NCBI GenBank assembly: GCA_031277315.1
Contig: JAITMP010000029.1
Location: 1 to 49,476 of the forward strand
Length of the DNA stretch: 49,476 nt
Origin: Zoogloeaceae bacterium
GTDB lineage: Bacteria; Pseudomonadota; Gammaproteobacteria; Burkholderiales; Rhodocyclaceae
Reading direction: 5' to 3'
Shown here in pieces: positions 21,627-25,249 of the stretch. Below the pieces are notes generated by a model, which was not told where the DNA came from, ran no database searches, and worked only from the letters and a program-made list of their open reading frames with translations. Each line of letters opens with the position of its first letter. Position 1 is the first letter of the stretch. Both the position numbers and the translations under genes were made by a program.

Positions 21627-23363
21627 ATGACGTTCGCCCTGCACGGTCTTGCCGTCTCTCACGGCATCGCCATCGGCCGCGCCCATCTCATTTCCCACGC
21701 CACGCTCGAAGTCGAGCATTACCTCCTGCCCGAACGTCATGTGGGCGAGGAACTCGCCCGCTTCGATCAGGCCGTCGCCGGCGTGCGGACGGAACTCGAC
21801 GCCCTGATGGCGCACGCCGATCCGGGCGCGCCCGCCGAACTGACCGCGTTCATCGACCTGTACCGCATGCTGCTGACCGATCCCCTGCTGACCGAGGCGA
21901 CGCGGGCGCTGATCCGTCAGCAACGCTGCAACGCCGAATGGGCGCTGGTGCAGCAGATGGAGCAGATCGTCGCGCAGTTCGAGCAGATCGAGGACGAGTA
22001 CCTGCGCGAGCGCAAGGCCGACGTGGTGCAGGTGGTCGAGCGCGTGCTGAAAATGCTGATGGGCCGCCCCGGTCACCCGCCGGCGCATGCGCAGGGAGAG
22101 CACCTGATCGTCGTCGCTCACGATCTGTCGCCGGCCGACGCCATCCAGTTCAAACAGTGGAAAATCGGCGGCTTCGTCACCGATCTCGGCGGCGCCACCT
22201 CGCACACCGCCATCGTCGCGCGCAGCCTCGCCATTCCGGCGGTGGTCGGCCTACACCATGCCCGTCATTTGATTTACGAAGACGACATGCTGATCGTCGA
22301 CGGCGCGCGCGGCGTGCTGATCGTCGACCCCGATGCCGATGTGCTGGAAGAATACCGCCGCCGCAAGCGCGCGCTGGAAGCGGCCCGCGCCAAGCTGAAG
22401 CGCCTGAAAAAAGCGCCCGCCGTCACCCTCGATGGCGTGGATATCGCGCTCGCCGCGAATATCGAGCTGCCCGGCGACGTCGCGCAAGTCCAGGCTGTCA
22501 ATGCCAGCGGGATCGGCCTGTTCCGCACTGAATTCCTGTTTCTCAACCGCGACGGCATGCCCGGCGAGGAGGAGCAGTACGCCGCCTATCGCGGTGTGGT
22601 CGAGGCGATGGCGGGTAATATCGTCGTCATTCGCACGCTGGACATCGGCGCCGACAAAAGCCCGCGCGGCGTCGACATCGCGCGCACCGGCCCCAATCCG
22701 GCGCTCGGCCAGCGCGCCATCCGCTACTGTCTGGCCGAGCCGCGGCTGTTCCTGACACAGTTGCGCGCCATCCTGCGCGCCTCGGCCCACGGCCCGGTGC
22801 GGCTGCTGGTGCCGATGCTGGCGCACGCCCACGAGATCGCCCAGACGCTGGCCATGATCGAGCAGGCCAAGGCGCAGTTGCGCGAGCGCGGCCAGCCTTT
22901 TAACGCGGCGCTGGAAATCGGCGGCATGATCGAAATTCCCGCCGCCGCGCTGGCCCTCGGCGTGTTTCTGGAAAAGCTGGATTTCCTCTCCATCGGCACC
23001 AACGACCTGATCCAGTACACCCTCGCCATCGACCGCGCCGACGAAACGGTGGCGCATCTCTACGATCCCCTGCATCCGGCCGTGCTGCGCCTGATCGCCC
23101 ACACCATTCAGGCCGGCGCGCGCGCCGGCGTGCCGGTGGCGGTGTGCGGCGAGATGGCGGGCGACCCGCAGTTCACGCGCCTGCTGCTCGGCATGGGCTT
23201 GCGCATCTTTTCCATGCACCCGGCGCAGATTCCCGAAGTGAAACGGGAAGTGCTGCGCAGCAACCGCGCCGGATTGCGCCGCAAGGTTGCCCGTCTGCTT
23301 GCCCTGGATGATCCGGTCGCGCTGCGCCGGCGGCTGGCGCGGCTGAACGCGGCGGCGGATTGA
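21627..23363 (+). CDS. ptsI: phosphoenolpyruvate-protein phosphotransferase (enzyme I)
   Basis: Enzyme I transfers phosphate from PEP to HPr. The 578-residue protein starts LHGLAVSHGIAIGRAH, then a helical HPr-binding region. The phosphohistidine domain GGATSHTAIVARSLAIP has active-site His193. The C-terminal PEP-binding TIM barrel contains FRTEFLFLNRD, GIMIEIPAAAL-like GMIEIPAAALAL, FLSIGTNDLIQYT and VCGEMAGDP with the catalytic cysteine. It has no N-terminal GAF domain, so it is EI rather than EI-Ntr in the strict sense. It follows ptsH by 49 bases. The run EIIA-HPr-EI is the standard betaproteobacterial regulatory PTS. Confidence 0.95.
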   Translation: MTFALHGLAVSHGIAIGRAHLISHATLEVEHYLLPERHVGEELARFDQAVAGVRTELDALMAHADPGAPAELTAFIDLYRMLLTDPLLTEATRALIRQQRCNAEWALVQQMEQIVAQFEQIEDEYLRERKADVVQVVERVLKMLMGRPGHPPAHAQGEHLIVVAHDLSPADAIQFKQWKIGGFVTDLGGATSHTAIVARSLAIPAVVGLHHARHLIYEDDMLIVDGARGVLIVDPDADVLEEYRRRKRALEAARAKLKRLKKAPAVTLDGVDIALAANIELPGDVAQVQAVNASGIGLFRTEFLFLNRDGMPGEEEQYAAYRGVVEAMAGNIVVIRTLDIGADKSPRGVDIARTGPNPALGQRAIRYCLAEPRLFLTQLRAILRASAHGPVRLLVPMLAHAHEIAQTLAMIEQAKAQLRERGQPFNAALEIGGMIEIPAAALALGVFLEKLDFLSIGTNDLIQYTLAIDRADETVAHLYDPLHPAVLRLIAHTIQAGARAGVPVAVCGEMAGDPQFTRLLLGMGLRIFSMHPAQIPEVKREVLRSNRAGLRRKVARLLALDDPVALRRRLARLNAAAD

Positions 23364-23383
23364 TGGCTTGGCAAGCCCCGAAA

Positions 23384-23412
23384 TTGACAAGCTCCGCCGG
23401 CCAAGGTAACTT
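23384..23412 (+). promoter_or_regulatory. promoter of metX, feeding the SAM-II leader
   Basis: A perfect -35 TTGACA (23384-23389) is followed after exactly 17 bases by a weak -10 TAACTT (23407-23412). Transcription would start around 23419, just at the 5' edge of the riboswitch aptamer, so the switch would occupy the very start of the mRNA. Confidence 0.6.
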
Positions 23413-23418
23413 TCTTCC

Positions 23419-23479
23419 GCAGCGCCGATTTGACCGTCAGCTTGCGGGCGCTTTAAAAATACGGCTAAAACGAGGACGA
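23419..23479 (+). promoter_or_regulatory. SAM-II (metA motif) riboswitch aptamer
   Basis: Arm AGCGCC (23421-23426) pairs perfectly with GGCGCT (23447-23452) to form P1. The loop reads CGATTTGACCGTCAGC and ends in TTGCG. The 3' tail contains the hallmark GCTAAAA (23464-23470). Loop CCGT (23434-23437) can pair with ACGG (23461-23464) as part of the pseudoknot. The order and sequence closely parallel the crystallised Sargasso Sea metX SAM-II element as I recall it: GATTT..ACCGT, TTGC before P1', an A-rich linker, GCTAAAA. SAM binding should lower expression of the downstream methionine gene. The gene context (metX) supports the call. Confidence 0.85.
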
Positions 23480-23484
23480 TCCAG

Positions 23485-23520
23485 CCCGGTCTTAGCCACA
23501 TCAAGCTGACCGGGTTTTTT
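23485..23520 (+). terminator. intrinsic terminator downstream of the SAM-II aptamer
   Basis: CCCGGTC (23485-23491) pairs with GACCGGG (23508-23514), extended inside by AGC/GCT, and is followed by six T residues. It lies a few bases after the aptamer and 5 bases before the metX ATG. It is the likely expression platform: transcription stops when SAM is bound. No Shine-Dalgarno is visible between it and the ATG. Confidence 0.75.
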
Positions 23521-23525
23521 ATTGC

Positions 23526-24652
<1,127 letters not shown>

Positions 24653-24656
<4 letters not shown>

Positions 24657-25249
24657 CGAACGTCCTCGGCCGTTTCGATTTTGAAGCCATCGCCAAATGG
24701 ATCAAGCCGGGCGAGAAAGTGCTCGATCTGGGCTGCGGCGACGGCAGCCTGCTGCGCTATCTGCGCGACGAGAAAGGCGTGCTCGGCTACGGCGTCGAGA
24801 ACGATCCGGCGAATGTGCTCGCCTGCGTCCGCAACGGCGTCAACGTGATCCAGATCGACCTCGAAGCCGGCCTCTCCGGTTTCGAGGACGGCTTCTGCGA
24901 TCACGTCGTCATGTCGCTCTCCCTGCAAACGGTGCGTCATACCGAACGGCTGCTGGCCGAGATGCTGCGCGTCGGCCGCGAGGCGGTGGTGAGCTTTCCC
25001 AACTTCGGCCATCACAGCTACCACGCGGCCATCGCGCGCGGGCGCATGCCGGTTTCCGAGAGCCTGCCCTATCAGTGGTACAACTCGCCCAACGTGCGCT
25101 TTTTCACGATGGCCGATTTCGAGGCCCTGTGCGCCGAGCGCGGCATCGTGCTGCGCGAGCGGCTCGGTTTCGACGGCGAAGCCGCCGTCACCGAAGACCT
25201 CAACCGCAACGCCAGCATCGCTGTGTATCGTCTGGGGAAAGCGGGTTGA
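24653..25249 (+). CDS. metW: methionine biosynthesis protein MetW
   Basis: A 198-residue methyltransferase-fold protein with the SAM-binding motif [12 protein letters not shown] (about residues 24-35). The MetW signatures are [33 protein letters not shown] and [10 protein letters not shown]. It is required with MetX for homoserine acylation in several proteobacteria; its catalytic role is not settled. The start overlaps the metX stop in an ATGA junction, so both fall under the same SAM-II control. Its stop overlaps the TTG start of the MFS gene. Confidence 0.95.

Follow-up and report, generated by a model that had tools for sequence, protein, structure and literature searches.

The closest described systems are the SAM-II riboswitches (Rfam SAM_alpha, RF00521) and two separately reported RNAs from beta-proteobacteria. 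SAM-II has already been named in beta-proteobacteria in the available text of PMC2258182 and PMC2704228. The available part of PMC4239095 (Leyn 2014) reports SAM_alpha in Rhizobiales and Rhodobacterales only, and describes a "novel" metXZ RNA element, consisting of a pseudoknot and a terminator and displaying six conserved sequence regions, before metXW and metZ of beta-proteobacteria. The same text gives the regulator of metK in beta-proteobacteria as unknown, the authors' own search for it having failed. The second RNA, Bp2_Cand287, is located near metZ and metX according to the accessible sections of PMC3521395, which suggest a cis-acting methionine element. It is catalogued in Rfam as the Bp2_287 sRNA (RF02424), with a cut-off of 70.

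The element described here lies in the window, the whole stretch of 49,476 bases that was analyzed, and adjoins the methionine operon metX-metW on its 5' side. Judged from its sequence, it is a real, complete and ordinary SAM-II attenuator for which SAM binding is predicted. The short RNA heading the metX message is almost certainly a SAM sensor, as predicted, that halts transcription when SAM suffices. We put the probability that metX-metW is shut off through SAM-II riboswitch transcription attenuation at about 0.88. Family membership by score, a conserved layout, complementary strands and leader-specific pairing carry this reading.

All features of the locus are on the forward strand. A ptsI-family gene (PEP-protein phosphotransferase, TIGR01417 of NCBIfam; 21627-23363) ends 20 bases upstream of the -35 box, TTGACA (23384-23389). 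In 96 of 114 leaders a TTGAC precedes P1 by about 20-50 nt, compared with 2.75 in mononucleotide shuffles. The -10 box, TAACTT (23407-23412), follows a 17-nt spacer; it is weak, with three of six letters matching TATAAT, and the genus leaders have similar bases there. Transcription would start at about 23419. The aptamer core (23420-23477) comes next and is contained within the RF00521 match. Sequence reading and RF00521 place its strands: P1 consists of AGCGCC (23421-23426) and GGCGCT (23447-23452), the third strand, or L1, is GATTTGA (23427-23433), and the P2 5' strand is CAGCTTGC (23438-23445), with TTGC at 23442-23445. The P2 3' strand, GCTAAAACG (23464-23472), was placed by RF00521 and alignment and has GCTAAAA at 23464-23470. 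The terminator, located by reading and by script, has CCCGGTC (23485-23491) as its 5' arm, GACCGGG (23508-23514) as its 3' arm, and a T6 tract (23515-23520). The ATG of metX (23526-24656; homoserine O-succinyltransferase type, NF047916, 670.6 bits) is at 23526, 5 nt past the T6, and metW (24653-25249; TIGR02081, 230.4 bits) overlaps the end of metX by 4 bases. A generic pattern scan listed neither the promoter nor the terminator, because its promoter rule wants four of six letters per hexamer and its loop limit is 8, and the loop here spans 16, or 8 if a bulged inner stem is counted.

The preliminary description had proposed a SAM-II unit with promoter and terminator before metX-metW. Its promoter, P1, pseudoknot strands, terminator, T6 and ATG were all found where it had placed them, NCBIfam names the two genes as metX and metW, and a survey of the locus in related genomes, which it had called for, showed the same arrangement of SAM-II element, promoter and terminator. 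The covariance-model search that it had also suggested gave a SAM_alpha match at 23412-23485 (+) with 41.2 bits (E 5.5e-6), above the gathering score of 36 by a moderate margin. This is the sole Rfam match at gathering score across the 49,476 bases. At E<=1 in the interval 23300-23700, the search otherwise returned just two weak matches, RF02837 at 17.4 bits and, on the minus strand, RF02424 at 14.7 bits. Neither SAM-V nor SAM-II long loops (RF01726) turned up in the window at gathering score, or in that interval at E<=1. RF00521 had no match in any of 14 control genomes. The SAM-II ligand-contact bases, which we take to be those of SAM-V transferred onto SAM-II positions, are the third-strand U's, the U.U site and the A's of GCUAAA, and the RF00521 alignment showed all of them in the window. 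They are invariant in alignment A1 as well, though there the seed pattern demanded them. The SAM-V contacts themselves are from PMC6061858, as given in its available text.

A second model, R1, was made from 61 aptamers of the loci gathered to that point, using a seed pattern that fixes GCGC, TTTGA, TTGC and GCTAAA. The invariance of these motifs is therefore by construction, and so is the 76.7-bit score of the window element, which is among the 61 rows. The P1 cells are paired in 98.6% of cases among these relatives. The outer P1 pair covaries (AU 21, CG 15, UG 12, GC 6, GU 2, other 5), the next four pairs are invariant, and the innermost is CG in 60 and UG in one, the constancy of the inner pairs being largely due to letters that the seed pattern fixed. 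In the P2 pseudoknot, which is short in the beta copies, three of four pairs are constant (61/61) and give no covariation signal, since the pattern fixed both TTGC and GCTAAA. The outer P2 pair (21-60) is paired in 50 of the 61 sequences and broken in 11, with both-side changes in six. GCTAAA is kept in 117 of the 120 R1 matches used.

The mechanism of the unit is supplied by an antiterminator that the preliminary description had left unseen. The sequence GGCUAA (23463-23468), which overlaps the 3' strand of the pseudoknot, is complementary to UUAGCC (23492-23497) inside the terminator loop. Thus the antiterminator uses the ligand-binding strand. This switching helix is new and well-supported. 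The pairing was analyzed across leaders taken from 138 R1 rows, of which 120 were entered; the 18 omitted were same-place repeats, second tandem copies, and partial or weak matches. Dropping three leaders with GCTAAG instead of GCTAAA and removing three duplicates left 114. A script found a terminator hairpin better than -7 kcal/mol in 108 of these, at least one of them (L067) apparently mis-chosen. The duplex between the P2 3' strand and the terminator interior averages -11.6 kcal/mol in the 108 leaders, and -8.2 kcal/mol when the interior is shuffled. The shuffle test gave p<=0.05 in 48 of the 108 and higher values in 60, six of them with p>=0.8. In the window the duplex has -10.3 kcal/mol against -4.9 kcal/mol for shuffled interiors, and none of 200 shuffles was as good; some other leaders (L049, L086) have 11 unbroken pairs.

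The pairing is also specific to each leader. When partners were permuted among 57 non-redundant leaders, a procedure that leaves shared ancestry in place, the true sum of -615.9 was reached in none of 2000 permutations (mean -554.7, sd 13.0). A leader's own strand was better than the mean foreign strand in 38 of the 57, and the own terminator had a median rank of 0.32. Covariation examined base by base was weaker than the energy test: complementarity was seen in 9 of 13 cases (p 0.06) and in 21 of 33 (p 0.033).

Folding of the growing RNA gave an order of events that fits attenuation. With the RNA made up to 23507, the minimum-energy fold consists of P1 and the antiterminator (-23.0), falling to -14.4 with 23463-23472 withheld. 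Once the 3' arm has been made and with P1 enforced, P1 plus terminator (-29.1) is favored over P1 plus antiterminator (-24.6), a gain of 4.5 kcal/mol. The program folds without pseudoknots; when folded at full length with no constraint (-30.1), the RNA retains the terminator and swaps P1 for another pairing, and P1 is likewise swapped in the fold to 23485. The antiterminator would win early unless SAM has captured its strand, this capture being the predicted step.

In the proposed model, RNA polymerase would begin at about 23419. When SAM is plentiful, it would be bound in the P1/P2 pseudoknot, which would keep hold of the strand GGCUAAAACG. The terminator (23485-23514) with its U6 would then fold, transcription would stop before the metX ATG, and metX would be off. 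When SAM is scarce, GGCUAA would be free to pair with UUAGCC upon its emergence, before the terminator 3' arm exists. The antiterminator so formed would block the terminator and metX-metW would be transcribed. SAM binding, the direction of switching and the start site are predictions of this attenuation model.

The start codon of metX raises the question of a second level of control. The ATG, 5 bases past the T tract, has no local Shine-Dalgarno sequence (+2.3 kcal/mol). The preliminary description had seen no ribosome-binding site there; this is correct, and common to the genus leaders. The P2 stretch, on the other hand, binds the anti-Shine-Dalgarno at -8.4 kcal/mol, and the Shine-Dalgarno-like GAGG at the P2 strand (23472-23475) is a candidate distant ribosome site. 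If this GAGG served the ATG 50 bases on, across the terminator, SAM would also block translation. Such dual control is unlikely, though it has several points in its favor. GAGG is conserved in 13 of 13 genus metX leaders (two of which, L026 and L036, were given a false TTG start by the script), and among 100 leaders it is present in 18 of the 20 that have a start no more than 8 nt from the T tract and in 29 of the 80 others. In Sinorhizobium meliloti, the Shine-Dalgarno of the metA SAM-II element serves an AUG 74 nt downstream, according to the available text of PMC9373788. GAGG may, however, be conserved for the sake of P2. Furthermore, an inverse correlation between local and P2 Shine-Dalgarno strength (rho -0.41, p 9e-4, 62 metX leaders) was lost when 39 clade means were used (rho -0.13, p 0.41), so that it is in effect the property of one clade; the energies and clade labels were entered by hand from 100 leader rows, with L128 and L022 excluded for a false start. 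A distant Shine-Dalgarno as a general rule was dropped on this result.

Much less probable is a leader that, once terminated, acts in trans as a small RNA, with attenuation as its by-product. Bp2_Cand287 is among the verified sRNAs of PMC3521395, and SAM-II leader sRNAs increase at high SAM in PMC9373788, as far as the available texts go. But siting before methionine genes and a leader-specific antiterminator are traits of a cis switch, and the accessible part of PMC3521395 itself proposes a cis-acting role. That the element is a relic, an aptamer-like sequence with a constitutive terminator and no ligand control, is hardly credible: the literature searched yielded no functional data for the organism, but the conserved core is intact in the window (RF00521 alignment), GCTAAA is kept in those 117 of 120 matches, and the antiterminator pairing is leader-specific. 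Transcription attenuation by a SAM-II riboswitch is the preferred reading, and the window element is settled as an ordinary, well-built SAM-II attenuator with a testable switching helix on its ligand-binding strand.

The preliminary description considered SAM-II notable outside alphaproteobacteria. This surprise proved unwarranted, because R1 matches 221 of 300 genomes of the order and the available text of PMC2258182 and PMC2704228 names beta-proteobacteria. In the class, 134 of 274 genomes match R1. By these predicted matches, SAM-II is common in betaproteobacteria and not exotic there. In 149 relatives, RF00521 matches 82 at E<=0.001 but just 30 over the Rfam cut-off, which suggests that the SAM_alpha cut-off misses many betaproteobacterial copies. 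Of the titled metX loci, 59 of 80 carry an R1 match; the other 21 (L055, L059, L062 and 18 more) have none at E<=0.1. The window MetX shares 90% identity with its counterpart in Candidatus Desulfobacillus denitrificans and as much as 91% with that of a Rhodocyclaceae MAG, which suggests Desulfobacillus or a closely related genus. A second SAM-II copy in the assembly precedes a gene named metZ by NCBIfam, and scores 26.8 bits with RF00521, below the cut-off, and 71.4 with R1. Copies in the genus mates precede metX, metZ and metH, the last named as a fragment under the full-length cut-off.

Several variants were seen among the copies. Tandem SAM-II elements occur at nine loci (L200, L201, L202, L203, L024, L112, L122, L129, L135), the second often with GATTTAA/CAACTTGC; tandem SAM-II has been published, with 44 examples in the available text of PMC9481103. 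One genome of the class (G627) has ten R1 matches, several of them paired about 100 bases apart. SAM-II-like elements precede AAA-ATPase-like genes at L200 and L287 (both G499) and L282 (G515); the L200 gene fragment has a weak bpMoxR match (PF20030, 19.2 bits, cut-off 27) and the L282 fragment weak AAA matches. L278 (G191) and L280 (G327), judged by eye alone, resemble these. Two copies appear to be translational, L118 (G009, contig C58) and L112:1474-1535 (G013, contig C133): RF00521 scores them 27.4 and 26.4 bits, below the cut-off, and GCTAAAGAGGAG is followed by an ATG within 8 bases. Copies with an insertion or long loop (L119 in G205, L126, L146) are matched by R1, L119 partly, and not by RF00521 at E<=1.

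The two RNAs reported earlier can now be compared with SAM-II. The metXZ element shares with the window element its genes (metXW, metZ), its class, and a pseudoknot plus terminator, as far as the available text of PMC4239095 describes it; the window element stands before metXW with both structures, and its assembly also has the metZ copy. It is presented there as novel and distinct, with a speculative antiterminator from other regions. The metXZ element is probably SAM-II, judged by position, genes, fold and platform. RF02424 concerns the same DNA as SAM-II, modelled on the other strand. All 30 of the RF02424 loci (E<=0.001; L119-L148) have a SAM-II match on the opposite strand, given by RF00521 (E<=1) in 23 and by R1 in the other seven, two of the matches being partial (L119, L148). 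Taken on its opposite strand, the RF02424 consensus gives the SAM-II core. The gene downstream on the SAM-II strand has a metX, metZ, metH or metK motif in 12 of 20 loci checked, these motifs being ones that we assume to be diagnostic. L119 is the only one of the 30 above the RF02424 cut-off (107.5 bits); it has no RF00521 match and a partial R1 match (32.3 bits, positions 2-33), with an insertion between P1 and GCTAAA. The window itself, at 14.7 bits on the minus strand against a cut-off of 70, does not carry the sRNA on its modelled strand. The 30 opposite-strand matches and the consensus argue that RF02424 models the reverse complement, with one of 30 loci over its own cut-off; by these comparisons RF02424 is predicted to be the SAM-II riboswitch on the wrong strand. 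Neither identity was found stated in the available text of the open-licence literature searched. These results suggest that the metXZ element and RF02424, separately published or catalogued, are one known riboswitch.

A related element precedes metK. The third R1 match in the assembly is weak (31.4 bits) and lies before a metK on another contig (C33:504-594, minus strand), a gene named by NCBIfam as a fragment under the full-length cut-off. One search gave metK loci for 30 of 41 places, and of the 47 loci in total from genus and family, 43 have a SAM-II-like leader; the observation draws on L199/L205/L276 (the C33 copy), L206-L251, L252-L281 and L296-L301. The four without it are a second metK copy (L220), a 29% match (L221), a contig-end fragment (L222) and one further locus, L245. 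All six titled genomes have the leader, Ca. Desulfobacillus denitrificans and Azospira sp. I13 among them. The MetK fragment on C33 (L205) shares 93% identity with that of another genus (G037) but 66-71% with the best genus-mate copies, so the contig may be a piece of foreign DNA within the assembly, or the result of a transfer. The metK claim is independent of C33, since the genus mates carry the leader as well.

The metK core reads CCGCC-GAGUUAA-GACAACUUGC(A/G)GGGCGG-AAAUACUGCUAAAGCGUC, and either loop may carry an insertion. In 32 aligned sequences of the 43, the P1 and P2 cells are paired in 100%. Eight of the 11 pairs are invariant; one of the P2 pairs occurs as AU in 23, GC in eight and GU in one. 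In a second helix, letters resembling CUGCUC are paired with GGAGCAG, the ribosome site of metK, so that the Shine-Dalgarno is masked. This pairing is leader-specific, at -667.9 against a permuted mean of -556.6 (sd 14.8; 0 of 2000 permutations, 48 leaders), in a test that leaves relatedness in place. An anti-sequestor helix between the P1 3' strand and CGCCUGC was rejected: it is 87.9% paired, has no both-side changes, and its measures are not above shuffles. At E<=5, Rfam gave no family at the metK element of 12 loci except SAM_alpha in one (21.4 bits). In the order, the R2 model matches 160 of 300 genomes. This count is an upper bound for the metK kind, as the weak matches include metX-type elements; of the best 30 R2 loci order-wide, 27 precede metK. 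In the class R2 matches 28 of 229 genomes, mostly weakly, and of eight such loci examined one is before metK, five are not, and two lack the core by pattern.

It is likely that bacteria with the metX switch also carry, before metK, an undescribed member of the SAM-II superfamily with putative control by SAM. With a helix over the metK ribosome site, translation of SAM synthetase would be repressed at high SAM. Compared with SAM-II, the third strand of the metK leader has a G in place of the initial U of GAUUU. Analogy with SAM-V (available text of PMC6061858) would put this position next to the adenine pocket. By our own mapping, this G suggests that the ligand or its affinity may differ. No report of the metK leader was found in the accessible text of the literature searched. 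If true, the metK leader would fill the regulator gap stated in the available part of PMC4239095 and extend the SAM-II class to SAM synthetase. The window finding is of value for clearing up what the names metXZ element and RF02424 stand for, and for the metK lead.

The window element shares with SAM-II (RF00521) the P1 helix, the H-type pseudoknot, the GATTTGA third strand and the TTGC/GCTAAA core. The layout is also shared: a promoter just 5' of P1, a terminator behind, and a methionine gene. The window type differs by having AGCUUGC...GCUAAAGCG as its core and an outer P2 that is short. It is like the S. meliloti metZ SAM-II element in its predicted transcription attenuation, and like that of metA in having a Shine-Dalgarno within P2 distant from the start codon used (PMC9373788, available text). 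For S. meliloti metA, the authors could predict no SAM-II-driven antiterminator in the same available text, whereas in the window the P2 strand is common to the terminator and the antiterminator. Both SAM-V and SAM-II long loops (RF01726) belong with the window element to a common pseudoknot superfamily, as described in the available text of PMC6061858 and PMC2864571.
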